This document shows positions 17,253 through 34,891 of a stretch of 35,866 bases of DNA, piece by piece. Where the stretch lies: the IMG/VR virus record IMGVR_UViG_3300006790_000053, positions 1 through 35,866 of that record; one strand, written 5' to 3'. Positions within the stretch are counted from its first letter, which is position 1. Each line of letters begins with the position of its first letter. The notes beneath the pieces are model-generated. The model saw only the letters and a program-made list of their open reading frames with translations. It had not been told where the DNA came from and searched no databases. The position numbers and the translations under genes are program-made. This DNA is from a virus.

Positions 17253-17587
17253 TGGCACGCGCAACCTCATACCAAGACTCCATGGCGACCGCGACCAAGA
17301 GCGACCTGCTCTACGTGCGCGGCGCCAAGAGTGTCATTATCACTTCCGACCAAGCTGTGCAGATTAAGATCCCCCTCGTACCTACGGGAACCGCTGCGCC
17401 TAGTAATGCGTCGGGCGTCAAGATCGAGTCCCAGGCTATGAGCAGTCCGCTCAGCCTGGTCGGCCCGACCAAGGAGCCGGACGGTACGTATGCGGGTGTG
17501 ATCCCGGAGGAGTTTATGCCTCCGTACATCTTCCTGCACAATACGTCGGGCAGCACCGCCAATGTTTCGGTATGGATTACCTACTAA
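17252..17587 (+). CDS. Small putative structural protein, paralogue 2
   Basis: 111 aa, related to the preceding gene: VRGAKSVIITSD against LRGAKSVYLISD, YAGVIPEEFMPPYIFLHN against RAGVIPGNVMPPYIYIKN, and similar endings (VSVWITY against VDIWVTF). It overlaps the upstream and downstream genes by 1 nt each, so the late transcript is tightly coupled here. No motif of known function is seen. Confidence 0.75.
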   Translation: MARATSYQDSMATATKSDLLYVRGAKSVIITSDQAVQIKIPLVPTGTAAPSNASGVKIESQAMSSPLSLVGPTKEPDGTYAGVIPEEFMPPYIFLHNTSGSTANVSVWITY

Positions 17588-17793
17588 TGGAATCTGCCGA
17601 AGTGTGGTTTGCCGTGGCGCAAGGTGCGACCGGGCTACTGGTCGTGGTCATTGGGTGGACGGCGGCGCGCTTGGCCGAGACGGTCGGGCGCTTAGCTAAC
17701 AAGGTCGCGAACCTGGAGCGCGATATGGTGCAACTCGTGGCCGAGCTCAAGGTCGAGGTCGCCACATTGCAGGAGCGATTACGTGGGCGCTAG
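17587..17793 (+). CDS. Small one-TM plus coiled-coil protein (holin/spanin candidate)
   Basis: 68 aa from the ATG that overlaps the previous stop by 1 nt; an in-frame ATG at 17572 would add 5 residues. Residues about 7-27 form a hydrophobic membrane segment (FAVAQGATGLLVVVIGW). The rest is an amphipathic heptad-like helix (VGRLANKVANLERDMVQL, then VEVATLQERL). Size and place after the fibre cluster match T7 gene 17.5 (class II holin, 67 aa), but the single TM plus coiled coil would equally fit an inner-membrane spanin. Assignment is tentative. Confidence 0.6.
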   Translation: MESAEVWFAVAQGATGLLVVVIGWTAARLAETVGRLANKVANLERDMVQLVAELKVEVATLQERLRGR

Positions 17794-18085
17794 GTACATC
17801 CCCCTGCTGGCGCTGTCGTCTTGCTCATCGCTGCCCACGCTAGGCTCCGGCGGTGACTCATCGTCGGCCCCTGACCTCGGGCCGGCGGTGGTGCAGGCCC
17901 TGCCGGAGGTCGCCCAGGCCACCAGCAATCTACTGCAGACCTTCGTCGTGACGGCGGTCGTGGTCGCGCTGTTCTTCCCAGCCGCGCGCTTCGCTGCGGT
18001 CGGAGTGTTCGTCGCCTTCTACGAATGGGTCGCTCGCCTGTTCCGTCCCCGCTCAAAGGAGGGTGGAGAAAAGGAAGTGCAGTAG
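17783..18085 (+). CDS. Putative lipoprotein with second TM segment, lysis region
   Basis: 100 aa with a GTG start 7 nt after an AGGAG ribosome binding site, overlapping the previous gene by 11 nt in another frame. The N-terminus (IPLLALSSC) looks like a short signal peptide with a lipobox ending at Cys14. A second hydrophobic stretch spans about residues 51-80 (FVVTAVVVALFF, then FAAVGVFVAFY), followed by a basic tail. A lipoprotein after a small one-TM protein recalls Rz/Rz1-type spanins, but the second membrane segment is not typical. Membrane topology and lysis role are inferred. Confidence 0.55.
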   Translation: MGARYIPLLALSSCSSLPTLGSGGDSSSAPDLGPAVVQALPEVAQATSNLLQTFVVTAVVVALFFPAARFAAVGVFVAFYEWVARLFRPRSKEGGEKEVQ

Positions 18086-18494
18086 GTGTAAGCGGCGCAA
18101 GGCTCTGTCCGAGTTCAACAAAGGCGGACAAACCTTTTGCCGCGATTGCAACCGCGAGTACCAGCGCGAGTACAGAAAGAAGAACCCCGACTACTGGCGG
18201 AGATACGAGGGGAAGCGTCGATCTAAATCGCAGATCCGTCAGAAGAACGCACGTCGCCGCGCCCTTGAGCGCAACGCTTCGGGGGAGGCCACGGCGCAGC
18301 AGATCGCAGCGCGCTTCGCCTACTACGGCAACCGCTGCATCACGTGCGGCTCGACCGATAAGCTGACGGTCGACCACCTGATCCCTCTCAGCAGGGGCGG
18401 CGCCAACTGGCCGTCGAACATGGCCCCCATGTGCCACAGGTGCAACTGCCAGAAAGGATCGCGCACGATCCAGGAGTTTAGAGATGGCAAATGA
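18063..18494 (+). CDS. HNH endonuclease next to terminase
   Basis: 143 aa. The N-terminal zinc-knuckle CSRCKRRK...FCRDC is followed by a basic helix. The HNH core is CITCGSTDKLTVDHLIPLSR, then a glycine-rich turn, N-W-P-S-N-M, and CHRCNCQKGS. This has two CxxC pairs, the DH of the first motif and the central Asn. HNH proteins beside large terminases in other phages assist genome cutting and packaging; a homing-type role is the alternative. The GTG at 18063 sits close behind AAGGAGGG, inside the previous gene. It overlaps the terminase gene by 11 nt. Confidence 0.85.
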   Translation: MEKRKCSRCKRRKALSEFNKGGQTFCRDCNREYQREYRKKNPDYWRRYEGKRRSKSQIRQKNARRRALERNASGEATAQQIAARFAYYGNRCITCGSTDKLTVDHLIPLSRGGANWPSNMAPMCHRCNCQKGSRTIQEFRDGK

Positions 18495-20235
18495 GCAAAG
18501 CATTAAAGCAGTCCGCGAGATGTACGCCGAGTTCGGCGACTTCCTGCATGACGTGTGGATGGGACTGCAACTCCCGCAGCCCACAGCCAGGCAGTACGAG
18601 ATCGCCGACTTCATGCAGCACGGCGGCTCGGCTGTGTTCGTCGCCGGCCAGCGTGGCATCGGCAAGTCCTGGATCGCAGCCAGCTACGGGATCTGGCGCC
18701 TGCTGCACGATCCCTCGGTCAACGTGTTCACCCTGTCCGCGTCTGCCGAGAAAGCAAACGAGCTCAGCCTGTTTGCCAAGCGCCTGCTAACCAACCCGCG
18801 CCTGCCGATGCTGCACCACCTCGCGCCGGCAGCGAACAGCCGGGACAACATCGCGCGTTGGGATGTCGCGCCTGCGCCGAACCAGCAAATGCCTAGCTGG
18901 AAAGCTATCGGTGTCGAGGGTCAGATCCAGGGCGCGCGTAGCAACCTAGTCATCCTCGACGACATCGAGTCGATGGCTAACTCCAAGACTCCCATGTCCC
19001 GCGAGCAGTTGCTGCGGCAGGCCATGGACGTTGAGTCCACCAAGATCCCGGACGACCCCAACGCGCAGACAATCTGGCTCGGCACGTATCAGTCGACCGA
19101 CTCGATCTACAAGCAACTGCGCGAGCGCGGCGTGGCATCGCGGATGTGGCCGTCGCGCTACCCGTCAGCCGATGCGATGGCTGCGTACTCGGGTTGCCTG
19201 GCTCCGTCGATTGAGAAGGAGCTCGAGCAGGATCCGGGCCTCGCGTCCGCCGGCATTGAGGGCCGGGGTGCGCCCATCGATCCGCAGCGATTCGGTGACG
19301 AGTTCCTGCTGCAGCGCGAGCGACTGTTGGGTAAGGCGCAGTTTGAACTGCAGTTCCAGTTGAACCCGCACCTGTCCGACCTCGACGCATACCCGCTGCG
19401 TTGCGAGGACGTGATCGTCGCGCACCTCACGCCCGATGGTGTGCCGGACGAGATCGCACCATCAGGTCGGGCGGAAGACCAGGCCGGGGATCTCCCGTGC
19501 GTGGGTCACAGCGGCGACTCCTTCTACCGCGCCGGCAAGTGGGAAGGCACGACCGTGCCATACGATCACATCGTCTGCGCTATCGACCCGTCAGGATCGG
19601 GCCGAGATGAGACCGCCTGGGTCATTGCAGCGGTGACTCTAGGTCGGATGTTCGTGCTGGACTGGGGCGGTCGGCAGGACGGAGCCAGCCAGCAAACCCT
19701 CGACGTGATCGCGAAGGCGTGTCGCAGGTGGAGCGTGACCGAGATCCTGCTGGAGCGGAACTTCGGCGGCGGAACCTGGACTGAGCTCCTGCAAGGTACG
19801 CTCCGCAAGGTGTACCCGTGCAGCGTCACGGAGGTGCAGGCCAAGGGATCCAAGGAGCAGCGGATCGCAGACATCCTGGAGCCAATCGTCCAGGCTCGCA
19901 AGCTGGTGATGGATGAGCGCGCCATCGCGTCCGAGTTCACGTGGGCATCGCGGCAGGAGTTGCCGGAGGCCGCGCGCGCTCGCCTGCTGGTCTACCAAAT
20001 GGCCCACCTCAAGCGCGAAAAGGGATGCCTGGAATGGGACGACCGCGTCGATGCCCTCGCGATTGCGGCGCAGTCCCTGCGTAAGCACGTCGGCCTCGAC
20101 CCCGACGAGCAAGCGGCTAGGCTCCGGGACGAGCGGCTCGATGCCGCCCTGGAATCCTTCCGCGATAGCGTGATCAGCCCAGGCCCCCCGAAAGGGAATG
20201 CTTGGGTGACCCTTCCGGGATCCAGACGCCGGTGA
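18484..20235 (+). CDS. Terminase large subunit (T7 gp19-like)
   Basis: 583 aa packaging ATPase-nuclease that pumps DNA into the prohead through the portal. Walker A is at about 54-63 (AGQRGIGKSW, K61). Walker B and the catalytic acid are at 155-161 (LVILDDIE, D159/D160). The RNase-H-like nuclease domain begins at AIDPSGSGRDETAW (D368) and continues with LLERNFGGG and a late D-x-x-D-A-L region (WDDRVDALAIAA). T7-like large terminases share the RG(I/V)GKS form of Walker A. The start has AGGAG 7 nt upstream. It is the last rightward gene before the non-coding region facing the integrase. Confidence 0.93.
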   Translation: MANEQSIKAVREMYAEFGDFLHDVWMGLQLPQPTARQYEIADFMQHGGSAVFVAGQRGIGKSWIAASYGIWRLLHDPSVNVFTLSASAEKANELSLFAKRLLTNPRLPMLHHLAPAANSRDNIARWDVAPAPNQQMPSWKAIGVEGQIQGARSNLVILDDIESMANSKTPMSREQLLRQAMDVESTKIPDDPNAQTIWLGTYQSTDSIYKQLRERGVASRMWPSRYPSADAMAAYSGCLAPSIEKELEQDPGLASAGIEGRGAPIDPQRFGDEFLLQRERLLGKAQFELQFQLNPHLSDLDAYPLRCEDVIVAHLTPDGVPDEIAPSGRAEDQAGDLPCVGHSGDSFYRAGKWEGTTVPYDHIVCAIDPSGSGRDETAWVIAAVTLGRMFVLDWGGRQDGASQQTLDVIAKACRRWSVTEILLERNFGGGTWTELLQGTLRKVYPCSVTEVQAKGSKEQRIADILEPIVQARKLVMDERAIASEFTWASRQELPEAARARLLVYQMAHLKREKGCLEWDDRVDALAIAAQSLRKHVGLDPDEQAARLRDERLDAALESFRDSVISPGPPKGNAWVTLPGSRRR

Positions 20236-20475
20236 CTTAGCGCGCGCAGGCACGCACGCACGCACGCACGCGCACACGCGCACACACACGCACGCGCGTT
20301 TTGGATAGGGGGCGCGGTCGCCGCACCGCGTCGAGGATCCCCGCGCGGCATCGGGGCCAAATCGCAGGGCATCGCGTCAGACGCGCGTTAAGGGGTCGCC
20401 ACGACGCGAAGGGCCGCAAGTAGGCTCATCACCCACCTGCGGCCAAGCGTGCAGCAGAGGCCCTCTGTGCGCGTC
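20236..20475. other. Non-coding 240-bp region between terminase and integrase; candidate attP region
   Basis: No convincing gene. It holds the alternating CA/CG tract (20251-20299), a hairpin of GGCCGCA (20412-20418) with TGCGGCC (20438-20444), and a small dyad CAGAG-GCC-CTCTG (20455-20467). It lies between convergent genes and directly 3' of the integrase, where attP commonly sits. The hairpins may act as transcription barriers, although no T-tract follows. Neither a core attachment site nor a tRNA fragment can be recognised by eye. Confidence 0.4.
20251..20299. repeat. Alternating purine-pyrimidine tract (CACG)n/(CA)n
   Basis: 49 consecutive bases alternate strictly between pyrimidine and purine, beginning with four to five CACG units and ending in CACGCGCG. 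Such sequences can adopt left-handed Z-DNA under negative supercoiling and are prone to replication slippage. It begins 15 nt after the terminase stop. Confidence 0.9.
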
Positions 20476-21264
20476 TCAGGAGATGCCCTCCATCGCCTCG
20501 CGCAGGGCGCGGTCACTCGGTCGCGAGTACCACTTGAGCGTGGTCTCGGCCTTCGCGTGTCGCATGAGCCGCTGCGCCACGTGGATCTTCACCCCGCTGT
20601 CGAGTAGCTGCGCGCCGAAGTACCCCCGCAGGGAATAGAACGTCCGCCGCCGACCGAGGCTGTCGTGCTGCTCGATCCCCACCGCCGCGAGATCGCAGCG
20701 CAGGGTCTCGGCGAGGTTCCGCCAGCCCCACTCCGTGAGGCGCGCGTAAGCCCCCGTCCGTAGCCGCATCTCGACCTCAAAGGGGAGCGGCAGGGTGTCA
20801 GCGCGTCGGCTCTTCTGTGCGCTCGCTGGCAGCCTCAGGACGAACACGTCCGGCTCGGTCTGCACGATATCCCGGTCGGGATTGATGCGCCGGATCTCGA
20901 CAGGGCGCAGCCCCGTGCGTGCCGCGATCAAGTAGAGGTCGCGCCGCGCTGCCGGGATGCGCTCGTCCGTGGTCAGGGCCTCAACGTGTTCCGGCTCCAG
21001 AGATCCCGGCTCTGCCGTCCGGCCCGTGCGCCGTGCTGGCTTCACCAGCCGCTGCAACTCGGCGATGCTCGCCCACCGACCGTAGCTGCGAAGCACCGTC
21101 ACCACGTGCTGCGTCGATGCGTCGCTGCGCTGCTGCGCGTATCGGTTGACGAGGCCCTGCGCCTTGGCAGGATCGGCTGCGAATCGGCGCAGGACAGACT
21201 GCACTTGGCGCACGTATTTGTCCGTCTTGCCGAGGCCCTCAAGGTGCGTCAGGTAGTCGATCAT
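20476..21264 (-). CDS. Tyrosine-family integrase
   Basis: 262 aa site-specific recombinase. The catalytic domain shows AARTGLRPVEIRRI (first Arg), a beta-hairpin with a possible Lys (AQKSRRADTLPLP), YSLRGYFGAQL (second Arg of the box-II region, with Y at the usual His position), LMRHAKAETTLKWY (His/Arg, and the nucleophile Tyr at the end). The N-terminal 90 residues form a short SAM-like core-binding domain (IDYLTHLEGLGKTDKYVRQV). I start at the ATG at 21264, which overlaps the upstream stop as ATGA. The longer 306-aa frame would run through the upstream gene. Last gene of the leftward operon; implies integration capacity. Confidence 0.88.
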   Translation of the reverse strand: MIDYLTHLEGLGKTDKYVRQVQSVLRRFAADPAKAQGLVNRYAQQRSDASTQHVVTVLRSYGRWASIAELQRLVKPARRTGRTAEPGSLEPEHVEALTTDERIPAARRDLYLIAARTGLRPVEIRRINPDRDIVQTEPDVFVLRLPASAQKSRRADTLPLPFEVEMRLRTGAYARLTEWGWRNLAETLRCDLAAVGIEQHDSLGRRRTFYSLRGYFGAQLLDSGVKIHVAQRLMRHAKAETTLKWYSRPSDRALREAMEGIS

Positions 21265-21512
21265 CCGACCACCTCCGTCAGCGTGTCGAGGTCGAATGCA
21301 TCGCACGGGTGGATCTTCCACGTGGCTTGTTCGCGCAGCGAGTTGGTACGCGCTTCGATCACGTATGCCAGCGACACGCGGCAGCAGGAAAAGCACTCGA
21401 CCTCGTTCCCGTTGGTCAGGGAGTAAAGCCGTCCGGCGCGAGCGTCGAGCAGTAGTTCGTCGTACCGCTCGCGCGTTACGGCCATAGGCTTGAAGGAATC
21501 AGGCTGTGTCAT
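21261..21512 (-). CDS. Unknown small protein upstream of integrase
   Basis: 83 aa. It has three clustered cysteines (CFSCC) and a later Cys (HPC), which could bind metal, but the pattern is not a standard zinc finger. An internal Met (position 10, MAVTRERYDELLLDARAGRL) could be the true start. It overlaps the integrase by ATGA, so the two are co-translated; an excisionase or integrase-accessory role is possible only by position. No family recognised. Confidence 0.6.
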   Translation of the reverse strand: MTQPDSFKPMAVTRERYDELLLDARAGRLYSLTNGNEVECFSCCRVSLAYVIEARTNSLREQATWKIHPCDAFDLDTLTEVVG

Positions 21513-24673: not shown

Positions 24674-24970
24674 ATGACACAGACGCCCTACCACCGCCGG
24701 CTACGGCCCGTCCGCCCCAGCTATCGGGATCGCATGGTTCTCAAGCGGCTGCAGACCGTATTGCCTGGTGAGCTCGGGGAGCCGATCCGCTTGGCGACGC
24801 GATACCTGTCGATCCTGACCGGGATCGGGCAGGGGCATTGCACGATGCACCTGAAGCGGCTGGAACACCTCCGGCTGATCGAGTGCTATGAGCGGCAGCG
24901 TCAGGGCAGCAAGAAGGGTGGCCTGTACAGACTGACCCGTCGCGGCTCCGCGTTTGACTGCGAGGTCTAG
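24674..24970 (+). CDS. Winged-helix DNA-binding protein
   Basis: 98 aa from the ATG at 24674; the longer in-frame extension runs through the terminator and is not coding. Residues about 35-90 show a winged helix: LGEPIRLATRYLSILTGIG, then GHCTMHLKRLEHLRLIECYE (recognition helix and second strand), then GGLYRLTRRG (wing). A basic N-terminus precedes it. As first gene of the rightward operon it could be an early regulator or replication accessory protein. It overlaps the initiator gene by 1 nt (TAGTG). Confidence 0.7.
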   Translation: MTQTPYHRRLRPVRPSYRDRMVLKRLQTVLPGELGEPIRLATRYLSILTGIGQGHCTMHLKRLEHLRLIECYERQRQGSKKGGLYRLTRRGSAFDCEV

Positions 24971-25842
24971 TGTCGAGTTTCGGCAAGGTGACCCAGCCTC
25001 TCCTGGAGGCTGCGAAGGTCTGCAGACAGTCGCGCGTCGACACGTCGCCCCTGCTGGTGCTGGCGTACTACGGTCTGGCTGAGCGGCCCGTCTGGGCGTC
25101 CAGCTACACCATCGCGGACACGCTCGGGGTAGACTCCAGCAATGTCCGCCGCACCCTACGCCGATACGTCGACATCGGGGTGCTGGAACTGGTGGGAGTC
25201 CGCCATCGGAGCAACTGCTACCAGCTAACGTCTAGGGTCATGGTGACCCTAGACCAGGGTCATGGTGACCCTAGATCTAGGGTCATGGTGACCCTCAAAC
25301 AGACTACTGAACAGACAACAGAACAAAAGAGCATGGCAAAGCCAAAGAGAGTACGCCCATGGCCTAGCGTCGACCCTGACGTTCAGGCCGCCATCGTCGA
25401 GAACTACTGCCGCGTCCTGGAGAAGTGCGGCAGCCCAGCCGCCCCGTCGCAGAAGGCGCTCGGGGTTCAGGAGGGCCTCGGTCGCCGCCACCAGATGTGG
25501 GAGGTCGACGGGATCGCCCACGTCCTAGAGGCGCCGGATGTCTGGGCCTGGATCGAGAAGCAGTTGGTCGGGCCGGACGGTCTGCCGTCGTGCAACCCCG
25601 CCTGGGCCTGGAAGTCGATCCTCGACAAGCTGGATCACGCACGGGTGCTGCGGGTGAAGAAGCAGCAGGCGCAGAGCGAGGCTGATCGCCGCGAGCAGGA
25701 AGCTCAGGCGGGAGCCGAGGAAGCCAGCGAGCGCGTGATCCTCGAGCAGCGCGCTGCAGCCGGGGATGTCGACGCTATGCGCGCCCTGTATGGAGACGCT
25801 GTGGCCGACGCTTTCGTCAAAGCCATGGAGGCGAACGCCTGA
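24970..25842 (+). CDS. Replication initiator-like protein with origin iterons inside its gene
   Basis: 290 aa with a GTG start overlapping the previous stop by 1 nt. Residues about 25-80 form a winged helix typical of phage initiators (VLAYYGLAERPVWASSYTIA, VDSSNVRRTLRRYVDIGVLE). A variable linker (about 88-120) is encoded by three 17-bp iterons. The C-terminal half has a tryptophan-rich helical domain (MWEVDGIAHVLEAPDVWAWI) and a coiled, charged tail. Its organisation parallels lambda O: initiator gene, internal origin, then a DnaB-type helicase downstream. No sequence kinship to O can be shown by eye; the role is inferred from domains and context. Confidence 0.7.
   Translation: MSSFGKVTQPLLEAAKVCRQSRVDTSPLLVLAYYGLAERPVWASSYTIADTLGVDSSNVRRTLRRYVDIGVLELVGVRHRSNCYQLTSRVMVTLDQGHGDPRSRVMVTLKQTTEQTTEQKSMAKPKRVRPWPSVDPDVQAAIVENYCRVLEKCGSPAAPSQKALGVQEGLGRRHQMWEVDGIAHVLEAPDVWAWIEKQLVGPDGLPSCNPAWAWKSILDKLDHARVLRVKKQQAQSEADRREQEAQAGAEEASERVILEQRAAAGDVDAMRALYGDAVADAFVKAMEANA
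25234..25330. repeat. Candidate replication origin: three 17-bp palindromic iterons plus A-rich stretch
   Basis: AGGGTCATGGTGACCCT occurs exactly three times, at 25234-25250, 25256-25272 and 25279-25295. Each is a perfect 7-bp inverted repeat around TGG, and start-to-start spacing is 22 and 23 bp, about two helical turns. The first copy extends to 10-bp arms (TCT...AGA). They are followed by a purine/A-rich, G-poor strand (25296-25340, with CAAACAGACTACTGAACAGA). Because spacings are not multiples of three, the repeat is translated in different frames, so DNA rather than protein sequence is conserved. This is the expected architecture of a lambda-type origin inside the initiator gene. Confidence 0.8.
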
Positions 25843-27044
25843 TGCGCTACCTGTCCGTATGTTCCGGGATTGAGGCTGCTACGGTCGCGTGGCATCACCT
25901 CGGGTGGAAGCCTACCGCTTTCTCGGAGATTGACGCATTCCCATCGGAGGTGCTGGCCCACCACTTCCCCGATGTTCCAAACCTGGGCGACATGACGGAG
26001 ATTTCGGATGAAGCACTTTCAGGAAATGATCTCATTGTGGGAGGAACGCCGTGCCAATCGTTCTCGGTGGCAGGGCTACGCGAAGGACTGGAAGATCCTC
26101 GCGGCAACCTCGCGCTTGCCTTTTGCGACTTGGTTCGCCGCGCACGTCCCCGATGGGTTGTCTGGGAAAATGTACCCGGAGCCTTGTCGTCGGGAGGAGG
26201 ACGGGACTTTGGTTCCATCATCGGGGCGTTGGCAGAACTCGGGTACGGTCTCGCCTGGAGAGTGCTGGACGCTCAACACTTCGGAGTTCCACAGCGGCGC
26301 AAGCGCGTCTTTCTTGTCGGATGTCTTGGAGACGCAGCCCGTGCCAGAGCGGTACTTTTTGAGCCCGAAAGCCTGCGCCGGGATTCTCCGCCGAGCCGAG
26401 AAGCGAGGCAAAAAGTTGCCGGAGTCCCTGGAGTCAGCTTTACGCTTAACGCTCACGGCGGATCACACAGCCGATTAGACGCGGAAAGTGAGACCTTCAT
26501 CACCTTCGACGGGGCGCCGACGATCAGCCATTGGGAAGGTGGGCCGCACCCGACCTTGAACCAATCGCACAACACGAGTTCGCCCGGTTATAGCGATCAG
26601 GAGCTTTTCTCCCAGCGCGGCGGTGGCCTGGTTCCGTCGGACGGCGTGGCCGATCCCGTCACCGCCAACGACGACCGCACCTACACGCAGGAGGGTAGCC
26701 GGAACTTCCGACTGAAGAACTGCGTGATAGCCTTCAAGCCTGGGCAATCTGCCGACGCAGGAACATTGGGCGCGCAAGAAGAGGTCGCTTGCACCGTGGA
26801 GGCCGGGGGCGGAGGGAATAGCCGCCAAGCAATCGCCAGCGGTCGCGGTCACGTGAGGCGACTCACCCCCCGCGAGTGCGAGCGGCTGCAAGGGTTCCCC
26901 GACGACTGGACGCGCATTCCGTGGAAGGGGAAGCCGGCAGACAAATGCCCGGACGGCCCACGCTACAAGGCTTGCGGCAACAGCATGGCCGTCCCCGTGA
27001 TGCGGTGGATCGGCGAGCGCATCCAGGAGGTCGAGAATGGATAG
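25842..27044 (+). CDS. C5-cytosine DNA methyltransferase (Dcm/HhaI type)
   Basis: 400 aa. Ordered motifs: I LSVCSGIEAATVAW (1-15), IV GGTPCQSFSVAG with catalytic C71, VI WENVPG (E109), VIII PQRRKRVFLVG (about 153-163), a target-recognition region about 190-320, IX RRLTPRECERLQGFPDDW, and X YKACGNSMAVPV. It methylates cytosine at C5, probably to protect phage DNA from host restriction or to mark its own DNA; no cognate nuclease is visible, so it is an orphan enzyme. The ATG overlaps the initiator stop by 1 nt. Residues about 56-212 are encoded by DNA that also carries a second ORF in the +1 frame. Confidence 0.95.
   Translation: MRYLSVCSGIEAATVAWHHLGWKPTAFSEIDAFPSEVLAHHFPDVPNLGDMTEISDEALSGNDLIVGGTPCQSFSVAGLREGLEDPRGNLALAFCDLVRRARPRWVVWENVPGALSSGGGRDFGSIIGALAELGYGLAWRVLDAQHFGVPQRRKRVFLVGCLGDAARARAVLFEPESLRRDSPPSREARQKVAGVPGVSFTLNAHGGSHSRLDAESETFITFDGAPTISHWEGGPHPTLNQSHNTSSPGYSDQELFSQRGGGLVPSDGVADPVTANDDRTYTQEGSRNFRLKNCVIAFKPGQSADAGTLGAQEEVACTVEAGGGGNSRQAIASGRGHVRRLTPRECERLQGFPDDWTRIPWKGKPADKCPDGPRYKACGNSMAVPVMRWIGERIQEVENG
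26008..26478 (+). CDS. Nested overlapping ORF inside the methyltransferase gene
   Basis: 156 aa in a different forward frame, wholly inside the methyltransferase gene. It has its own ATG with a GGAG 7 nt upstream. The translation is not low-complexity. The C-terminal part (SGTVSPGECWTLNTSEF, LSDVLETQPVPERYFLSPKA, CAGILRRAEKRGKKLPESL) resembles, from memory, a recurring family of phage and prophage hypothetical proteins found with or within Dcm-type methyltransferase genes. If that recollection is right, both frames are expressed. Function unknown. The alternative is a fortuitous GC-rich open frame, which I consider less likely because of the family resemblance and the ribosome binding site. 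Confidence 0.65.
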   Translation: MKHFQEMISLWEERRANRSRWQGYAKDWKILAATSRLPFATWFAAHVPDGLSGKMYPEPCRREEDGTLVPSSGRWQNSGTVSPGECWTLNTSEFHSGASASFLSDVLETQPVPERYFLSPKACAGILRRAEKRGKKLPESLESALRLTLTADHTAD

Positions 27045-28353
27045 CCTAGCCAACTCGGAGCAATGCCTCGTCGCCATGATGCTCATGGACGGCAAGCTGG
27101 TCGAGGCAGCTTCCGCCAAGGTCAAGCCGGAGGACTTTGGATCCGACCGGCTTAGGAAGCTGTACAAGCTGATCCTCGACCTCGACCGCGCAGAGCCGGG
27201 GGCCGTCGACGCCGTCCAGGTGATGACGGTCATCGAGGATCGCAGGCTGCAGGAGGAACTCGTCGACCGCGAGGGGCTTCGCTCGATGCTCGCGAGCGTT
27301 CCGTCGACAGCATACGCTGAGACGCACGTGAACGCCGTTCTGGAGGGCGCGCGTCGTCGCCGCCTGTCCGATGCCCTTGTGCGCGCCCAAGCCGCCATAG
27401 GCGAAGGGGAGAAGGCTGGCAACGTCATGCGCCAGTTGGACGAGGATCTGCAGACCGCCCACGCCGCACGTGGCGAGACGGATCTGGTGGTCTCGCGTGA
27501 CGCGGACAAGATGTTCCGGGGCCAGTTGCAGCAGCGCGTCAGCCAGACGGATGGCGCGAGGCTCATCGATACTCCGATCCCGGCCCTGACGCAGCTACTC
27601 GGCGGCGGATTGTCCGGCGGCGAGATGGTGATCGTGGCGGGTCGTGCCGCGATGGGCAAGTCGGTGTTCGCCGAGTGCATGGCCGAACAGGCATGCCAGC
27701 ATGGGTCGGTGCTGTACTGCAGCCTGGAGATGACCTCGGATCAGATGGTGCAGCGCGCCTACCAGCGATTCTCCGAGCAGCCGATCCCTGACGCTCGCAC
27801 CGCCTACGGGGCCAGCGCGCAGGCAGTCCTGGCCGTCAGCGAGTCGGTGTCGACGCGGATCAGGAGCCGCAACATCTACTACATGGACAAGACCGACGTG
27901 GACTTCCAGGCGATCCATGCTGCGGCGCTGTCGCTGCGCGCTCGGTCGTCGCTGTCGCTGGTGGTCGTCGACTACATCGGCCTAGTGCGCGAGGATCCGT
28001 CCGCGCGTAGCCGGCAGGAAGCCGTGAGTTCGCTGTCCCGCCGCCTGAAGCGAATGGCGCTGTCTCTCAAGATCCCGGTCATCGCCGTCGCGCAGTTGAA
28101 CCGCGAGCTTGAAAGGCGCGACGATAAGCGCCCGAAGCTGTCGGATCTCCGGGAGTCGGGCGCTCTGGAACAGGATGCCGACCGCGTGTTGGCCGTCCAT
28201 CGTCCGAGCTACTACGATCCTGGGTGCAATGAGACCGATAGGATCATTGTCCTCAAAAACCGATACGGTCAGACTGGCGAAGTCGGCGCCAGCTTTGAAC
28301 CGCACAGAATGCGCTGGAGCGCGCTCAAGTTTTCCGACCATTCCGTTCTGTAA
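27037..28353 (+). CDS. DnaB-type replicative DNA helicase
   Basis: 438 aa. The N-terminal DnaB-N-like helical domain (SEQCLVAMMLMDGKLVEAAS, residues 7-130) is joined to a RecA-like domain: the ring-forming lead-in GGGLSGGEMVIVAGRAAMGK (Walker A K208), SLEM (sensor region), VVVDYIGL (Walker B D312), VIAVAQLNRELERR (motif H4-like) and a late DLRESGALEQDADRV arginine-finger/Gln region. It unwinds DNA 5'-3' at the phage fork. Length is slightly below the usual 450-470. It overlaps the methyltransferase by 8 nt. With the initiator it forms a self-sufficient loading module; no DNA polymerase is encoded, so the host enzyme is presumably used. Confidence 0.94.
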   Translation: MDSLANSEQCLVAMMLMDGKLVEAASAKVKPEDFGSDRLRKLYKLILDLDRAEPGAVDAVQVMTVIEDRRLQEELVDREGLRSMLASVPSTAYAETHVNAVLEGARRRRLSDALVRAQAAIGEGEKAGNVMRQLDEDLQTAHAARGETDLVVSRDADKMFRGQLQQRVSQTDGARLIDTPIPALTQLLGGGLSGGEMVIVAGRAAMGKSVFAECMAEQACQHGSVLYCSLEMTSDQMVQRAYQRFSEQPIPDARTAYGASAQAVLAVSESVSTRIRSRNIYYMDKTDVDFQAIHAAALSLRARSSLSLVVVDYIGLVREDPSARSRQEAVSSLSRRLKRMALSLKIPVIAVAQLNRELERRDDKRPKLSDLRESGALEQDADRVLAVHRPSYYDPGCNETDRIIVLKNRYGQTGEVGASFEPHRMRWSALKFSDHSVL

Positions 28354-28469
28354 TGAAGCACGTCCGCAAATACCTCAGTCTCGCTTTCTACTTCCTCGCG
28401 CAACTGCTCGCTCGCGTTAGCTGCGCGTGTGAGAAGTTCAGCCTGTACGTCGCCCCGAAGAACAAATGA
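28353..28469 (+). CDS. 38-aa membrane-type peptide between helicase and GH10 gene
   Basis: The ATG overlaps the helicase stop by 1 nt (TAATG) and the TGA overlaps the next ATG (ATGA), so it is embedded in a translationally coupled chain. The peptide starts MKHVRKYLSLAFYFLAQLLA and continues with two Cys and a basic tail. The hydrophobic helix (about residues 8-24) suggests a membrane anchor or a signal-like leader; the VSCAC segment resembles a weak lipobox. No known family. Coupling on both sides argues that it is real. Confidence 0.6.
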   Translation: MKHVRKYLSLAFYFLAQLLARVSCACEKFSLYVAPKNK

Positions 28470-29443
28470 GTTGCGTCAACAAACGAACTATGTCTGGCAA
28501 GCCGCTGTTTGGCTACATGCAGCGCGTTACTAGCAGACACGTCGAGCCGATGGCATGCATGAGCAAGGCCAGCGTTTCGCTGTGCGGCGTGTCCGGCAAG
28601 TGGCCGAGCATGCTGACGCGCGAGTCGGACGGCATTCTCGATTTAGACCTTAGCGATCTCGAGGAGTCTATCGACCGCGCGCGTGAGATGGGCCACAAGA
28701 CCAAGTGGCACTTCGCTGTCGGCTTCAAGCCCAAGTGGGTTCCGGCGGAAGGCTACACCCTGGCGTACCAAACGAAGCGCATCGAGGACAACCTCGCGTA
28801 CATCGACACGGTCATGCGCGAGCTAGGTCACAAGATCGACATCGTCGACGCGATCAATGAGCCTCTGCAGCCTGACGGCTCGGGGTTCCGGCATAGCCCG
28901 AACCACGACAAGATCACCGTCGAGGAGATCGCCACGTACCTCAAGTACATTGACGCGCACCCCTGCCGGAAGACAAACCTGCAGATCGGCATCAATGAGT
29001 ACGGTGTCGAGCGCAATGGCCTGAAGCAGGACACGCTCTATCAACTCTGCCTGCAGTTGCGCGACGAGTTAGACGCGCCTCTGGATTACGTCGGCATGCA
29101 ATGCCACCTCGACGCGGCAGACCCGCCGAACCGAGATGAGTTGCAGCAGTCGTTCCAGCGTTTCGCCGACGCAGGGTTCGCCGTGCATATCACGGAGTTG
29201 GACATCCGCGTCGCCGGAGTGGATGCCTACAAGCTGCGCCGACAGGAGGAGGTCGCCGAGGATCTGCTGGTCGCCGCGCGTCGCGCCGGGGTGCATTACG
29301 TAATCACCTGGGGTACGACCGACAATGACAGTTGGATCTACGCCAAACACGGCATTGACTACCCAGATGAGCAGCCGCTGCCGTATAATGTCCAGAATGC
29401 GCCGAAGCCATTCGGCCAGAAACTCGAAGCCCATACGAGGTGA
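28466..29443 (+). CDS. GH10-family endo-1,4-beta-xylanase-like glycoside hydrolase
   Basis: 325 aa, the size of one GH10 (beta/alpha)8 catalytic domain. Signature residues in order: GKW (44-46, equivalent to the MKW substrate-binding Lys-Trp), TKWHFAVGFKPKWV (conserved His82, like LVWHxQxPxWV), IVDAINEPL (N131, E132 general acid/base), YVGMQCHLD (Q212, H214), HITELDIRV (E244 nucleophile) and VITWGTTDNDSWI (282-291, like FWGVTDxxSW). All catalytic-site hallmarks are kept, so it is probably active on xylan or a related beta-1,4 glycan. No signal peptide is visible on its own ORF. It is not near the tail genes but in the replication operon between helicase and recombination genes. It is unusual cargo, presumably released at lysis. 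Confidence 0.85.
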   Translation: MSCVNKRTMSGKPLFGYMQRVTSRHVEPMACMSKASVSLCGVSGKWPSMLTRESDGILDLDLSDLEESIDRAREMGHKTKWHFAVGFKPKWVPAEGYTLAYQTKRIEDNLAYIDTVMRELGHKIDIVDAINEPLQPDGSGFRHSPNHDKITVEEIATYLKYIDAHPCRKTNLQIGINEYGVERNGLKQDTLYQLCLQLRDELDAPLDYVGMQCHLDAADPPNRDELQQSFQRFADAGFAVHITELDIRVAGVDAYKLRRQEEVAEDLLVAARRAGVHYVITWGTTDNDSWIYAKHGIDYPDEQPLPYNVQNAPKPFGQKLEAHTR

Positions 29444-29445
29444 CG

Positions 29446-30285
29446 ATGACACAGAAAGAGCAAAGCAAACAATCAGTCGGCGCGAAGCGCTACGTCGAGG
29501 TCATGGATCCCGACGTTTATCACAGTCAGCCTGAGATCAGCAAGTCTGGTCTCGACATGATTGCGAAAGCCCCGCGCCTCTACCATTGGCATCACATCGA
29601 CCCAGATGGTGAGCCGCTGAAGCAGACTCCGGCGATGGAGTTGGGCGAGTACGTCCACGTCGCAACGCTGGAGCCGGATCGCTGGCAGTCGCACTACATT
29701 TGTGCGCCCAAGTTCGACCGACGCACCAAGGCTGGCAAGGAGCAAGCCGCGCAGTTTGAGCTTGAGAACGAGGGCAAGATCGTCGTGCCATCCGACATGT
29801 ACGATCACGCCAACCGCAGCGCCGACGCTGTGCGCGAGCATCCGCATGCCGGCGATCTACTGATGCTGCCTGGCAGGGCAGAGGTCTCGATGTTCTCCGA
29901 GCATGAGGAGATGGGCGTCGGCATTCGCGGTCGCGCGGACTACATCCTCGACGGCTCGTCGAGCATCATTGACCTGAAGACAACTCGCGACGCATCGGCG
30001 CGCAAGTTCTACTACTCGGTGCGCGACTACCGCTACGACGTGCAAGCAGCGTTCTACCTGGATCTGCTTAGCCACTTCCGCGAGGAGGTCGGCACGTTCT
30101 ATTGGGTGGCTGTCGAGCCGCGTCCGCCGTATATGGTCAGCCTCTACTGGGCTGGTCAGGATATGGTCAACGCAGGTCGCGAAAAATACTACCGCGATCT
30201 GCTTAACTACAAAGTGTGCCTTGAGACCAACACATGGCCGGGGTACGTCGCAAGTCAAGAGTTGAACCTGGAGGTTCCAAAGTGA
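29446..30285 (+). CDS. RecE/PDDEXK-type exonuclease
   Basis: 279 aa. It matches the phage exonuclease VIII-like nuclease fold: ISKSGLDMIAKAPRLYHWH (conserved N-terminal LSxSxLxxxxxSPxHY-type motif), GEYVHVATLEP, then GRADYILDG with D165, IIDLKTTRDAS with D176 and K178 (the D...DxK core), and YRYDVQAAFYLDLL (motif IV Gln/Tyr). It produces 3' single strands for the following annealing protein. ATG at 29446 has GAGG 5 nt upstream and is preferred to the GTG at 29440 that overlaps the GH10 stop. Confidence 0.88.
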   Translation: MTQKEQSKQSVGAKRYVEVMDPDVYHSQPEISKSGLDMIAKAPRLYHWHHIDPDGEPLKQTPAMELGEYVHVATLEPDRWQSHYICAPKFDRRTKAGKEQAAQFELENEGKIVVPSDMYDHANRSADAVREHPHAGDLLMLPGRAEVSMFSEHEEMGVGIRGRADYILDGSSSIIDLKTTRDASARKFYYSVRDYRYDVQAAFYLDLLSHFREEVGTFYWVAVEPRPPYMVSLYWAGQDMVNAGREKYYRDLLNYKVCLETNTWPGYVASQELNLEVPK

Positions 30286-30938
30286 CACAGATTGAGCAAG
30301 TCAAAGAGCAGGCGCGGATCATCGCGTCGTCATCCCTCGTCCCAAAGCAATATCACGGGAAGCCCCAGGATTGCTTCATCGCGCTGCAGGCAGCTAACAG
30401 GCTCGGGTGCGACCCGATGCTGTTCATGCAGCAGACCTACGTGCTGCACGGCAAGCCGGCAATGACGGCTAAGTTCCAGATCGCACTAGCGAACAACTCG
30501 CCGCGCATCCGTGGCGGCATCCGCTGGAACATCAGCAAGAAGGGTGACTATTCGTGCGAGGCGACATGCGCCGAGACGGGTGAGATCCTGCAAGGCCCGA
30601 TCTGCAACCTTGAACTGGCAAAGGCAGAGAACTGGACGAAGAACGGCAAGTACCGCACGATGCCGGATCTGATGCTGCGCTATCGTGCGGCGACGATGTT
30701 CATCGCGCTCTATCTGCCGGAGACCACCATGGGCTTCCAGTCGGTCGAGGAGGTGCAGGACGTGCAAGCGTCGCAAGCGCCGATGACCTCGCTGCCGCCG
30801 GATCTCAAGCCGGAGCAGGCCGCTGCGCCCCCGGCTATTGAAGAGCCTAAGGCTCAGGATCTAACGCATGGTGATGGCGAGATCGTCGACGCCGTAGTGG
30901 CGGAAGACGCCAAGGTCGAGCAGAAAGACCTGATCTAG
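30282..30938 (+). CDS. RecT-family single-strand annealing protein
   Basis: 218 aa from the GTG at 30282 (GGAGG 7 nt upstream, overlapping the exonuclease stop). The core shows FIALQAANRLGCDPMLFMQQ, then YVLHGKPAMTAKFQIAL, then the terminal motif NGKYRTMPDLMLRYRAATMF with the PxxMLRYRA pattern typical of RecT-type proteins. The C-terminal 50 residues are a disordered, proline- and acid-rich tail. It pairs with the upstream exonuclease as a RecET-type recombination system for end repair, concatemer formation or recombination. Confidence 0.88.
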   Translation: MTQIEQVKEQARIIASSSLVPKQYHGKPQDCFIALQAANRLGCDPMLFMQQTYVLHGKPAMTAKFQIALANNSPRIRGGIRWNISKKGDYSCEATCAETGEILQGPICNLELAKAENWTKNGKYRTMPDLMLRYRAATMFIALYLPETTMGFQSVEEVQDVQASQAPMTSLPPDLKPEQAAAPPAIEEPKAQDLTHGDGEIVDAVVAEDAKVEQKDLI

Positions 30939-31195
30939 CAGTTCCACTTCTTGAGGGCCAAGTTGATGCGAGACTTCGGATCGCGCTTCGTCTTTTCGCT
31001 AGTCAGCTTGGCCTTCATACCTTTCATCCGCGCACAGAAACTCTTGCGACGCTTGGCATCCTTCGACCCCTTCTTGGGCTTACCCGTCACCGGGGCCTTG
31101 AGGTTTGAGCCTGTCTCGCGGTTGTACTTGCGCCGACCGGCTGCGGTCAGTCCACCTGTGCGCGATTTGTGTTTGCCGATTCTGAGGGAGACCAT
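30935..31195 (-). CDS. Small basic protein (DUF6321-like), antisense to the operon
   Basis: 86 aa from the ATG at 31195, rich in Lys and Arg: GGLTAAGRRKYNRETGSNLK, then RRKSFCARMKGMKAKLTSEK, then DPKSRINLALKKWNC. From memory this matches a widespread small phage protein family annotated DUF6321. It overlaps the recT stop by 4 nt tail-to-tail and diverges from the resolvase gene with only 15 nt between starts. It therefore sits backwards inside a rightward operon. A nucleic-acid-binding role is plausible from charge; function is unknown. Confidence 0.75.
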   Translation of the reverse strand: MVSLRIGKHKSRTGGLTAAGRRKYNRETGSNLKAPVTGKPKKGSKDAKRRKSFCARMKGMKAKLTSEKTKRDPKSRINLALKKWNC

Positions 31196-31210
31196 AGCGT
31201 GAAGGATAAC

Positions 31211-31696
31211 ATGAGATTCATCGGCGTCGACCCCGGCAAGACCGGGCATATTGCGATTATCAACGAAGAGGGTAAGTACCTTTTCGATGCCAAGATCCCG
31301 CTGATTGACGGCGAGCTTGCCTGCAGCGTCCTAGAGACGCATTGCCTGGGCGCGCGCTGCGTCGCGCTGGAGCAGGTGCAGGCGATGCCGGGGGGCGGTG
31401 TGCGTCGTCCTGGCATTGTGTCGACGTTTAACTTTGGCAAGATCTTCGGCGAGACGCTCGCTTGCATCCGCATGTGCAACGCGCCGTTGCTAAGACCGAG
31501 GCCACAAGAGTGGCAGAAGCTGATCTACGGGGGCCGCAAGAAAGGCCAAGACCCGAAGGAGACCAGTCGGGCTGTCGCCGCCGAGCGACACCCATCCATC
31601 GCCGACCGCTTTCAAACTAAGGTTTCAGCCGGCCTCGCGGACGCGCTGCACCTTGCTGAGTACGCGCGGCGGCTAACCCTGTACGAAGAGAAATGA
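31211..31696 (+). CDS. RuvC-like Holliday junction resolvase
   Basis: 161 aa from the ATG at 31211 (AAGGA 4 nt upstream); in-frame starts at 31169 and 31199 are less likely. RNase-H-fold motifs: MRFIGVDPGKTGHIAII (D7), VALEQVQAMPGGG (E54), RPRPQEWQKLI (loop before the last helix) and GLADALHLAEYA (D144). It cleaves branched DNA, resolving recombination intermediates or debranching DNA before packaging. It overlaps SSB by ATGA. Confidence 0.88.
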   Translation: MRFIGVDPGKTGHIAIINEEGKYLFDAKIPLIDGELACSVLETHCLGARCVALEQVQAMPGGGVRRPGIVSTFNFGKIFGETLACIRMCNAPLLRPRPQEWQKLIYGGRKKGQDPKETSRAVAAERHPSIADRFQTKVSAGLADALHLAEYARRLTLYEEK

Positions 31697-32112
31697 GCTA
31701 CAACCGCGTCATTCTGATGGGCAATCTCACGCGAGATCCCGAAACCAGCCAGAGCAAGTCTGGCATGACCATCTGCAAGGCCGGCCTCGCTGTCAACGAG
31801 CGCATGCCGGACGGGCAAGGTGGATACAAAGACGAGGCGTCGTTCTTCGATGCCGTCCTCTTTGGCAAGCGAGCAGAGGCGTTTGCGCGCTTCATGCAGA
31901 AAGGCAAGCCATGCCTGATCGAAGGCAAGCTGCGACAGAGCCGCTGGCAAGACAAGGAGTCGGGCAAGGCCCGATCCAAGGTCGAGGTCATCGTCGACAG
32001 TTGGGAGTTTGTCGGGCCAAAGGGCGAGGACAGTCGAGGGGACTCCGTCCAGCAGGCTTTCGGTGGCACTCCGCAACCGGCAGCAGCTTTCGGAGACGAC
32101 GTTCCGTTCTAG
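31693..32112 (+). CDS. ssb: Single-stranded DNA-binding protein
   Basis: 139 aa OB-fold SSB of the bacterial type. It begins SYNRVILMGNLTRDPETSQS, followed by the conserved ASFFDAVLFGKRAEAFARFM and CLIEGKLRQSRW segments. A short linker with Q, G, P and A leads to the acidic tip FGDDVPF, which in bacterial SSBs recruits partner proteins, so this phage protein probably binds host replication factors. It is the last gene of the rightward replication operon, followed by a terminator. Confidence 0.95.
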   Translation: MSYNRVILMGNLTRDPETSQSKSGMTICKAGLAVNERMPDGQGGYKDEASFFDAVLFGKRAEAFARFMQKGKPCLIEGKLRQSRWQDKESGKARSKVEVIVDSWEFVGPKGEDSRGDSVQQAFGGTPQPAAAFGDDVPF

Positions 32113-32128
32113 AGAGAAAGTGTTTTCC

Positions 32129-32164
32129 TACGAGCCTTCCTGATAAGGGGAGGCTCGTTTTCTT
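32129..32164 (+). terminator. Intrinsic terminator after ssb
   Basis: CGAGCCTTCC (32129-32138) pairs with GGAGGCTCG (32147-32155), with one bulged T and an 8-nt loop. TTTTCTTTT follows (32156-32164). It closes the early/replication operon just before the head-gene cluster. Confidence 0.85.
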
Positions 32165-32221
32165 TTCCACGGACGCAACTTTATATGCCACAGTCACTTG
32201 CGCTCGCTATACGATCCCACT
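32165..32221 (+). promoter_or_regulatory. Possible late promoter region
   Basis: The gap between the ssb terminator and the next ATG contains TTTATA (32178-32183) and TATACGAT (32206-32213) as -10-like sequences, but neither has a good -35. A late promoter is expected here because the terminator separates it from the upstream operon. Exact site not resolved. Confidence 0.3.
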
Positions 32222-32404
32222 ATGAGCGAAGCAGGGTTTCCCTTGGTCTCCAAGGAGCTCGTCGAGAAGTTGGAGGAGCTTTTTCCACCCCAATGCATCG
32301 GCGAGAATCAGAGTTTCGATGACGCCCACCGATACGCCGGGATGGTGTTCATCGTGCAGTTCCTCCGCAACCAGTACGAGAAGCAAGTAGATGTGCCTCG
32401 GTAG
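32222..32404 (+). CDS. Unknown 60-aa protein, first gene of head cluster
   Basis: 60 aa from the ATG at 32222 (MSEAGFPLVSKELVEKLEEL); a TTG 24 nt upstream is also in frame but lies in the likely promoter. It contains a helical, acidic sequence with FDDAHRYAGMVFIVQFLRNQ. No family recognised. Its small size and place before the proline-rich protein and portal are similar to small pre-portal genes in other T7-like phages. It overlaps the next gene by 14 nt in another frame. Confidence 0.6.
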   Translation: MSEAGFPLVSKELVEKLEELFPPQCIGENQSFDDAHRYAGMVFIVQFLRNQYEKQVDVPR

Positions 32405-32585
32405 CACGACCGTTCGCCCTCCGGCTCCCGCCCCCGCTGCCCCACCGCCGGCCACCAAGCCGGCAGAGGAGATCACGACTGGTGACGTGCGAAAGCGCCG
32501 GAAGCGCCAGGAGCAGCTTGGCTTTGCTCTACGCATTCCTCGCCCCCAGGGCTTAGGTTCGGGCGGTAGCGGCGCCAACTACTAA
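32391..32585 (+). CDS. Proline-rich small protein upstream of portal
   Basis: 64 aa. MC start, then TTVRPPAPAPAAPPPATKPA, a basic stretch (VRKRRKRQEQ) and a glycine-rich C-terminus (GLGSGGSGANY). Small MC-proline-rich proteins of this type are common immediately before podovirus portal genes, from memory; function unknown, possibly a head or membrane-associated minor component. It overlaps both neighbours (14 nt and 1 nt). Confidence 0.7.
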   Translation: MCLGSTTVRPPAPAPAAPPPATKPAEEITTGDVRKRRKRQEQLGFALRIPRPQGLGSGGSGANY

Positions 32586-34144
32586 TGCATCAGCAGGGAT
32601 CGATTGCAGGCCAGTATCAGCGCATGTGCGCTGATCGTGAGCATTTCCTGGATCGAGCGCGAGACTGCTCGGCGGTCACCATCCCGACCGTCGTGCCGCC
32701 AGAGGGGTTCGTGCAATCGAGCGACATCCACGTCCCGTTCCAGGGCCTGGGCGCGCGCGGTGTCAACAACCTGAGCTCGACCCTTCTGCTGAGCATCCTC
32801 CCTCCGTCGAGTCCGTTCTTTCGACTCACGCTAACCCCGGAGGCTAGGGCATTAGTCGGCGAAGACCATGAGGCTCTTGCAGAAATCGACACAGCCCTGA
32901 GTCTCCGGGAACAGGCCGTCATGCGCGAGATCGAGCGCCAGGGGTTGCGTAACCCGCTGCACTCGGCTCTGCGTCACTTGCTCATCTCCGGCAACGTGGT
33001 GATCTACCATCGCCCGGAGGGTGGGTTCCGCCTGTTTCCCCTAGATAGTTTCGTCATCAAGCGCAGCGGTCGCGGACAGATTGAGTGCCTGATTACGCAC
33101 GAAACGGTTAGCGTCGAAGATCTGCGCCAGCAGCTAGAAGACGAAGAGATCGCGGCTATCGAGGCATCCCCCGCTGGGCAAGGCGCGATGAAGCGCCACA
33201 GCGACCTCGATATGTACTGCCGCATTGAGCGGCGCGACGGCGGGTACGTCAAGGAACTTGAAGTCGCTGGCGTAAAGATCGACAGCGCCGACCATGAGTG
33301 GGGTGAGGACGAGGGCCTGCCGTACCTGGCTCCGCGCATGATCACCATCGATGGTGAGGCGTATGGCCGTAGCTACGTCGAGGAGTACCTCGGAGAACTG
33401 CGGTCACTCGAGGGCCTGCAGCAGGCTATCGTCAGCGCGAGCGCCGCAGCCGCCAAGGTTTTGTTCCTGGTCGATCCGTCCGGCTTGACCAGGCCGAAGG
33501 ATCTTTCGGACACCCCGAACCTAGCCGTGCGCTCCGGGCGCGCCGCCGACGTGTCGACGCTGCAACTGCAGAAGTTCGCAGACATGCGCGTCGCGTTTGA
33601 GTCGATCCAGAACATCGAGCAGCGGCTTAGCTACGCATTCATGCTGGTCGAGGCTGGCATCCGAAACGCTGAGCGTGTGACCGCTGAAGAGGTGCGCCGT
33701 GTGCAGCAGGCTGTCGAGCGTCAACTCGGCGGCGTGTACAGCCTGATCAGCAGCGAGATCCAAGTCCCGTTGATCGAGCTCGTCATGGAGCAGATGCAGT
33801 CGGCGCTGCCAGAAGTCCCGACCAAGTACGTCGACAAGGTGATCATCACCGGGGTCGAGGCCCTGGGTCGCGCTGCCGACAGCGCGCGCCTGGACGCATT
33901 CATTGCCGGCGGACTGCAGACGTTCGGGCCGCAGTTTGTCGAGTACCTCAACATGCCGGAGTTTGCGCGCCGTCGCGCTGCGTCTCTGGGCATCGAACAC
34001 AAGGGACTCGTCAAGTCGGAAGAGCAACTGGCGCAGGAGCGGCAAATGGCTGCACAGGCGCAGGCTGCTCAGATGGCAAACCAAGAAGCGATTGGAGTTG
34101 CGGGTTCCGTCGCGAAGGAAGCATTAACAGCACCGCAGGAGTAA
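32585..34144 (+). CDS. Portal (head-tail connector, T7 gp8-like)
   Basis: 519 aa (T7 gp8 is 536). Typical T7-like portal features: an R-x-x-F-L-x-R-A-R-D start of the wing, FQGLGARGVNNLSSTLLLSI (the Q-x-x-GArgvN-LasKL-l motif), long helices, VTAEEVRRVQQAVERQLGGV and YSLISSEIQVPLIELVMEQM near the C-terminal half (the stem/crown), and a Q/A-rich C-terminal helix. It forms the dodecameric ring used for packaging and ejection. It is followed 3 nt later by the scaffold gene. Confidence 0.94.
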   Translation: MHQQGSIAGQYQRMCADREHFLDRARDCSAVTIPTVVPPEGFVQSSDIHVPFQGLGARGVNNLSSTLLLSILPPSSPFFRLTLTPEARALVGEDHEALAEIDTALSLREQAVMREIERQGLRNPLHSALRHLLISGNVVIYHRPEGGFRLFPLDSFVIKRSGRGQIECLITHETVSVEDLRQQLEDEEIAAIEASPAGQGAMKRHSDLDMYCRIERRDGGYVKELEVAGVKIDSADHEWGEDEGLPYLAPRMITIDGEAYGRSYVEEYLGELRSLEGLQQAIVSASAAAAKVLFLVDPSGLTRPKDLSDTPNLAVRSGRAADVSTLQLQKFADMRVAFESIQNIEQRLSYAFMLVEAGIRNAERVTAEEVRRVQQAVERQLGGVYSLISSEIQVPLIELVMEQMQSALPEVPTKYVDKVIITGVEALGRAADSARLDAFIAGGLQTFGPQFVEYLNMPEFARRRAASLGIEHKGLVKSEEQLAQERQMAAQAQAAQMANQEAIGVAGSVAKEALTAPQE

Positions 34145-34147
34145 AGC

Positions 34148-34855: not shown

Positions 34856-34891
34856 ACAAACCCCTTCAACTTCTGATTAGGAGACAACGTC

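Follow-up and report, generated by a model that had tools for sequence, protein, structure and literature searches.

A divergent GH10 glycoside hydrolase gene carried between replication genes of a T7-like podovirus

The GH10 gene and its phage surroundings

The window analyzed here, i.e., the whole stretch of 35,866 bases that makes up an entire IMG/VR record, has the gene order of a T7-like podovirus, with tail tubes, internal virion proteins, tail spike, T7-type terminase, portal, scaffold and capsid; a tyrosine integrase gene and a replication module of the DnaB/RecE/RecT/SSB kind are also present (Table 1). Based on the presence of the integrase gene, the phage is probably temperate. Searches with the integrase and the terminase brought out no named host, and no close prophage was found in ~ 780 Pseudomonadota genomes, where the best terminase reached 39%. 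The tail spike appears to be the virion-borne polysaccharide-binding part. The gp16-like internal virion protein (7412-14836) contains 2474 aa, about twice the length of that of phage LUZ100 (~ 1210 aa); a HELSH metallopeptidase-like motif was seen in it by eye, and phrog_6651 matches only parts of it. Two adjacent paralogous ORFs of 126 and 111 aa, ~ 31% identical and with no profile match, follow the tail spike (16872-17587), and a run of CGCACG/CACACG repeats (20240-20300) separates the convergent terminase and integrase genes, possibly near the attachment site.

A preliminary description made from the sequence alone had placed a GH10 xylanase-like gene between a DnaB-type helicase and a RecE-like exonuclease, and Pfam and PHROGs confirmed this placement. 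The GH10 gene is an uninterrupted ORF, and its neighbors overlap it on both sides: dnaB runs into a 38-aa peptide through TAATG, the peptide into the GH10 gene through ATGA, and the GH10 gene into recE through GTGA. The ATGA overlap agrees with the translational coupling of peptide and enzyme that had been proposed. For a membrane segment, the hydrophobicity of the peptide is borderline, with a Kyte-Doolittle maximum of 1.58 over 19 residues. That the enzyme is not a tail gene was also borne out, given its position between dnaB and recE, its single domain and the absence of a virion-anchoring domain. A sigma-70-type scan detected no promoter-like or terminator-like site beside the GH10 gene and one weak promoter-like site just after it. 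Synthesis in a lysogenic host, as had been allowed for, appears unlikely, since the gene sits in the middle of an operon for lytic replication and showed no credible promoter of its own in that scan. Further along the operon, a 104-aa gene on the opposite strand (30935-31249) overlaps the start of the resolvase gene; it falls within a set of related PHROGs whose function is unknown, and its relatives occur near many T7-like portals at 35-65% identity.

Table 1 Features of the phage genome discussed in the text
Feature	Coordinates	Strand	Remarks
Tail spike	14830..16872	+	T7 gp17-type N-terminal domain and pectate-lyase-like β-helix
Holin-like 73-aa protein	17572..17793	+	One hydrophobic segment, T7 gp17.5 position; by position and eye
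u-spanin-like 100-aa protein	17783..18085	+	LSSC lipobox-like start, C-terminal hydrophobic segment; by eye
T7-type terminase large subunit	18484..20235	+	Pfam/PHROGs
Tyrosine integrase	20476..21396	-	Pfam/PHROGs
Replication initiator, O-like	24970..25842	+	Near start of replication operon; PHROGs
DNA methyltransferase	25842..27044	+	PHROGs; no match in L027
DnaB-type replicative helicase	27037..28353	+	Upstream of GH10; PF03796, E 5.9e-63
38-aa hydrophobic/amphipathic peptide	28353..28469	+	Core module gene; overlaps dnaB and GH10
GH10 glycoside hydrolase, 325 aa	28466..29443	+	One catalytic domain; E132 presumed acid/base, E244 presumed nucleophile
RecE/exonuclease VIII-like PD-(D/E)XK nuclease	29440..30285	+	Downstream of GH10; phrog_412, E 4.5e-79
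RecT-like annealing protein	30234..30938	+	Pfam, PHROGs
Holliday junction resolvase	31169..31696	+	phrog_1770
Single-strand binding protein (SSB)	31693..32112	+	Pfam
T7-type portal (head-tail connector)	32585..34144	+	Pfam, PHROGs

Family, predicted fold and sugar subsites

The GH10 motifs listed in the preliminary description were each found in the ORF, i.e., GKW (44-46), WH (81-82), NEP (131-133, with E132), QCH (212-214), ITELD (242-246, with E244) and WGTTDNDSW (282-290). A profile search agreed with the family call made from them: PF00331 matched residues 73-316 (profile positions 70-304 of 311) with 120.7 bits and an E-value of 9.5e-35, above the curated Pfam cut-off of 22.1 bits. In a sequence search of the PDB more than 100 chains matched the ORF and, among the matches listed, nearly all were GH10 xylanases. 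The GH10 match is thus far above chance level. Residues 1-72 lie beyond the Pfam match yet hold the expected strands 1 and 2, and FG in strand 1 lies only ~ 2 residues nearer to KW than it does in ordinary GH10s. Residues 14-325 were modeled with AlphaFold from an alignment with trimmed rows (pLDDT 86.5, pTM 0.88), and the barrel strands came out in order. The model shows the GH10-type (β/α)8 barrel; the top solved match was Cellulomonas fimi Cex (Z 34.8, rmsd 2.1 over 292 residues), and the 50 PDB structure matches listed were GH10 enzymes with Z values of 31.8-34.8. No signal segment is evident at the N-terminus, where the hydrophobicity maximum is 0.83. The lack of an evident signal peptide, the synthesis together with replication proteins and the absence of a virion anchor suggest that the protein is cytosolic and made during replication.

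Within the model, E132 lies just past strand 126-131 and E244 within strand 239-248; both columns hold Glu in all 86 other GH10 sequences of our alignment. The phage protein keeps further positions that are near-invariant in these 86 sequences, namely K45, G76, H77, W81, D128, N131, N177, G210, Q212, H214, D246, W282, D286 and W290. The residues that we take to form the -1 subsite (K47, H80, W84, N126, Q203, H205 and W273 in Cex numbering) have their equivalents in K45, H77, W81, N131, Q212, H214 and W282. The -2 subsite for xylose in Cex-type enzymes, presumably formed by E43, N44 and Q87 and not common to every GH10 member, is replaced: the E-N pair of the ENxMKW motif is G41 and V42 in the phage protein, and the Q after WHN is A84. 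There is also a 3-residue insertion at residues 86-88, and two further family-wide residues are changed, with T in place of L79 and V127 in place of the W that precedes the acid/base motif. Given the replacement of the -2 residues and the retention of the catalytic and -1 residues, we would expect working chemistry with a shifted substrate preference; plant xylan would be one candidate, and the true substrate may be quite unlike xylan.

Selection, presence and absence, and rarity of the gene

A second contig from another metagenome (3300007960_004813, hereafter L002) carries the same GH10 gene (97% aa identity) between the same neighbors at 96.7% nucleotide identity. It aligns to positions 27196-35865 of the window and continues into positions 1-1565 with ~ 6 bases between, which indicates that the ends of the phage genome meet. 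Comparison of the two contigs, in which the counts of differences are small, gave dN/dS values of 0.14 (GH10 gene), 0.21 (portal) and 0.08 (small peptide). Nine of the ten GH10 differences fall in residues 22-98, and there are none in residues 99-318. Based on the dN/dS value and the identity of residues 99-318, purifying selection keeps a working GH10 protein. The two phages do not represent one strain, as the similarity of their gp14 and gp16 proteins is no more than 26-45%. In the comparison of region 4132-14836 with L111/L108, the gp14-gp16-like ejection proteins of the two GH10 phages share only 26-45% identity between flanks of ~ 92-99%, which marks the exchange of an entire block. Nucleotide identity to L002 drops to 82% (dS 0.62) in the Holliday junction resolvase gene, with the genes around it at 96-99%, and yet its product is 88% identical to that of the distant contig L027 described next, which marks a local exchange.

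We compared 80 IMG/VR contigs with related portals (L027-L106), many of which are short or do not cover the locus. One of them, L027 (3300006869_000164; portal 60%), has the same replication module, with identities of 59% for TerS, 54% for DnaB, 63% for RecE, 79% for RecT, 88% for the resolvase and 73% for SSB. Its gene order is dnaB, a 47-aa ORF, a 39-aa peptide and recE, and both the GH10 gene and the DNA methyltransferase gene are absent from the module; a profile search for GH10 in L027-L106, limited by the same short or locus-lacking contigs, was negative. The 39-aa peptide (L027:3294-3413) is homologous to the 38-aa peptide (44%, E 2.8e-5). Comparison with the L027 module therefore indicates that the GH10 gene either entered between peptide and recE or disappeared from this site. 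It is a clean cargo gene, present or absent between the conserved peptide and recE, and its neat ATGA/GTGA overlaps and phage-like composition suggest a long residence in the phage. A survey of related genomes, as the preliminary description had envisaged, thus yielded one relative with the GH10 locus and one without it; the view of the gene as a moron-like addition to a podovirus replication operon stands, as it is flanked by phage genes on both sides in two assemblies and missing from L027. The tie between the 38-aa peptide and the enzyme does not stand, because the peptide has a homolog in the GH10-less module; it is a core module gene rather than a partner of GH10. Its conservation in L027 likewise rules out the 38-aa ORF as a signal peptide supplied by frameshifting, and no slippery site was seen by eye.

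That such genes are rare in phages, as had been stated, was supported by searches of phage records and IMG/VR. Among 50,697 phage records, GH10 occurred only on nine unannotated fecal virome scaffolds; a search with the phage GH10 protein reached three such scaffolds. The one scaffold examined in detail looks bacterial: judged by eye, a GH43-like ORF comes after the GH10 gene, and AraC-type regulator-like ORFs stand to either side. GH10 was found neither in isolate phage records nor in PHROGs, which gave no match to the ORF, nor among the matches listed from a library of predicted viral protein structures, the best of which were GH5 enzymes of the same clan (TM ≤0.68). The canonical GHTLVWH motif detected 15 contigs in IMG/VR, and the profile identified a clear GH10 in 4 of these. 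By eye, the latter have bacterial-type genes around GH10, or a contig end next to prophage-like genes, and they look like prophage borders or like contig ends that bear host-type genes. Broader alignment scans of IMG/VR added nothing beyond L002. The IMG/VR scans rely on short exact peptide patterns that may overlook divergent relatives, so that these counts are lower bounds.

Exact peptide patterns detected no close GH10 relative in the GTDB genome collection, and the nearest relatives by alignment patterns, from Nocardiopsis, Streptomyces and haloarchaea, are ~ 33% identical. In the maximum-likelihood tree, which is midpoint-rooted and places long branches with uncertainty, the branch that leads to the two phage GH10s measures 3.5 changes per site and falls outside the 86 others. 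Due to the midpoint root and the uncertain placement of long branches, the donor cannot be named. A close bacterial donor was ruled out among the sequences found, the nearest being 33% identical, and the tree gives none.

Possible roles and relation to known systems

We tentatively favor, at a probability of roughly 0.45, a cytosolic GH10 enzyme that is made during replication, set free at lysis and acts on an extracellular β-glycan. As we infer its activity, release, substrate and benefit, the protein would be a retaining β-glycanase, cargo of a probably temperate T7-like phage, that is translated in step with dnaB, the small peptide and recE and builds up in the cytoplasm during lytic growth. 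Once the cell is opened by holin, lysis enzyme and spanin, it would leave together with the virions and cut a β-1,4-linked glycan outside, candidate targets being the exopolysaccharide or capsule of neighboring host cells, or xylan-like detritus from plants or algae with hosts attached to it; such cutting would help progeny to diffuse towards new cells. A polysaccharide coat on the host is probable, as the virion carries a β-helix, pectate-lyase-like tail spike. In some Alphaproteobacteria, GH10 genes lie amid glycosyltransferase genes (Methylosinus pMSC49c, Sphingobium L162), a context that offers a precedent for GH10 serving bacterial exopolysaccharide. The extracellular reading is preferred because of this suggested coat, the glycosyltransferase-associated GH10s and the lack of any other recognized sugar-use gene; against it, L027 lives without GH10, and the -2 residues of known xylanases are lost. 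Phages engineered to express dispersin B, a biofilm-degrading glycosidase, within the host and to free it at lysis demonstrate that such a strategy is workable, and the phage GH10 would be their natural counterpart.

A cytosolic GH10 could equally act inside the cell, as an auxiliary metabolic enzyme that cuts β-1,4 oligosaccharides imported by the host (e.g., xylo-oligosaccharides) and feeds metabolism and nucleotide synthesis. Expression with replication genes and the lack of an evident signal peptide would fit such a role, as would the match to the intracellular xylanase IXT6 (2q8x/1n82, E ~ 3e-12; fold Z ~ 32); IXT6 is, however, no nearer than secreted xylanases. We consider it possible but unlikely, since no transporter, xylosidase or pentose gene was recognized in the phage genome with Pfam and PHROGs, and the loss of the -2 residues is unexpected for a xylo-oligosaccharidase.

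It is doubtful that GH10 is a recruited endolysin cutting the β-1,4 glycan strand of peptidoglycan. The gene lies beside the helicase, where T7-like phages keep their lysozyme (T7 gp3.5), and the amidase of the temperate T7-like phage LUZ100 is encoded in the replication region. Pfam and PHROGs recognized no endolysin domain in the other ORFs, which cover 98% of a genome whose ends meet, yet holin-like and u-spanin-like ORFs are present; the glycone subsite is moreover remodeled. Were this true, the enzyme with its altered -2 subsite would be the lysis glycosidase of the phage, the sole endolysin candidate recognized and the first GH10-type enzyme on peptidoglycan, a proposition that we hold to be improbable. 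To our knowledge GH10 enzymes do not cut peptidoglycan, and the top structural similarity is to ordinary xylanases. Furthermore, the L027 replication module is likewise without a recognized endolysin, and L109, a contig from the same sample (terminase 62%) that we assume to be of one phage with L027, has the same holin/spanin-like set with no recognizable endolysin in its late lysis region. As L027 and L109 also lack a recognizable one, the lineage probably has an unrecognized endolysin elsewhere. A 696-aa tail-region protein of L109 (619-2709) contains a WTNEFWN stretch that resembles a clan GH-A glycosidase by eye, and it had no Pfam, PHROGs, PDB or phage match.

We judge it very unlikely that the protein is a repurposed or inactive GH10-like barrel, e.g., a glycan-binding or anti-defense protein. 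The branch of 3.5 changes per site and the changes at family-wide positions described above (at V127, T79, G41-V42 and A84, with the 3-residue insertion) could be read in this way, but neither the catalytic glutamates nor the -1 subsite have been altered, the two phages agree at every residue from 99 to 318 in spite of their differences elsewhere, and a PADLOC search gave no match. Finally, host DNA at a prophage edge or an assembly chimera, which the other GH10s in IMG/VR or fecal phage scaffolds bring to mind by resembling prophage-adjacent host DNA or misassigned bacterial contigs, is practically dismissed: phage genes overlap GH10 on both sides, L002 repeats the gene and its neighbors, L027 has the module closed up, the composition of the gene is phage-like (GC3 0.79), and the gene circle closes without host genes. 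Judged from these sequences, the GH10 gene is truly phage-borne.

The phage protein shares with Cex/Xyn10A of C. fimi, Thermotoga XynB and Streptomyces XynAS9 the whole predicted (β/α)8 fold, the catalytic Glu pair and the -1 subsite. It differs from known GH10 xylanases in being ≤33% identical to the relatives found, in lacking an evident signal peptide and a binding module, in its replaced -2 residues and W preceding the acid/base motif, and in the insertion, which lies in the β3-α3 loop. Like the Geobacillus enzyme IXT6 it is a single-domain GH10 that is presumably not exported; IXT6, in contrast, is a bacterial catabolic enzyme with ~ 21% identity over 296 aligned residues. The phage itself resembles LUZ100 in its T7-type virion genes in the same order, its tyrosine integrase and its portal (45% identical). 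LUZ100, however, has a phage RNA polymerase, a T7-type primase/helicase and an amidase, whereas the GH10 phage has DnaB/RecE/RecT-type replication and GH10, with RNA polymerase and endolysin not recognized. Tail-spike depolymerases are likewise phage-borne polysaccharide-cleaving enzymes; those are virion-bound, mostly β-helical and encoded in the tail module, whereas the GH10 gene lies outside the tail module and its product has no virion anchor.

Studies of soil and mangrove viromes have described glycoside hydrolases on viral contigs and read them as auxiliary metabolic genes; among these are a GH5 endomannanase (PMC6786970) and a chitosanase (PMC9485262), both active, and a GH10 xylanase that appears in a table for mangrove soil viruses (PMC6460857). 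A viral GH10 has thus already been reported, and what is new is where the gene sits, how far it has diverged and how its locus compares with a module that lacks GH10. For polysaccharide hydrolases of viruses, the usual evidence is a contig that might include host DNA from a prophage edge. The GH10 gene described here is overlapped by replication genes, recurs, under purifying selection, in a second phage and is absent from a sister module; its branch lies far from every bacterial or archaeal GH10 in our comparison, and its substrate-binding subsite is altered. In comparison to the virome enzymes, it is set apart by two independent contigs, a closed gene circle, a GH10-less sister module and its place in a replication operon.
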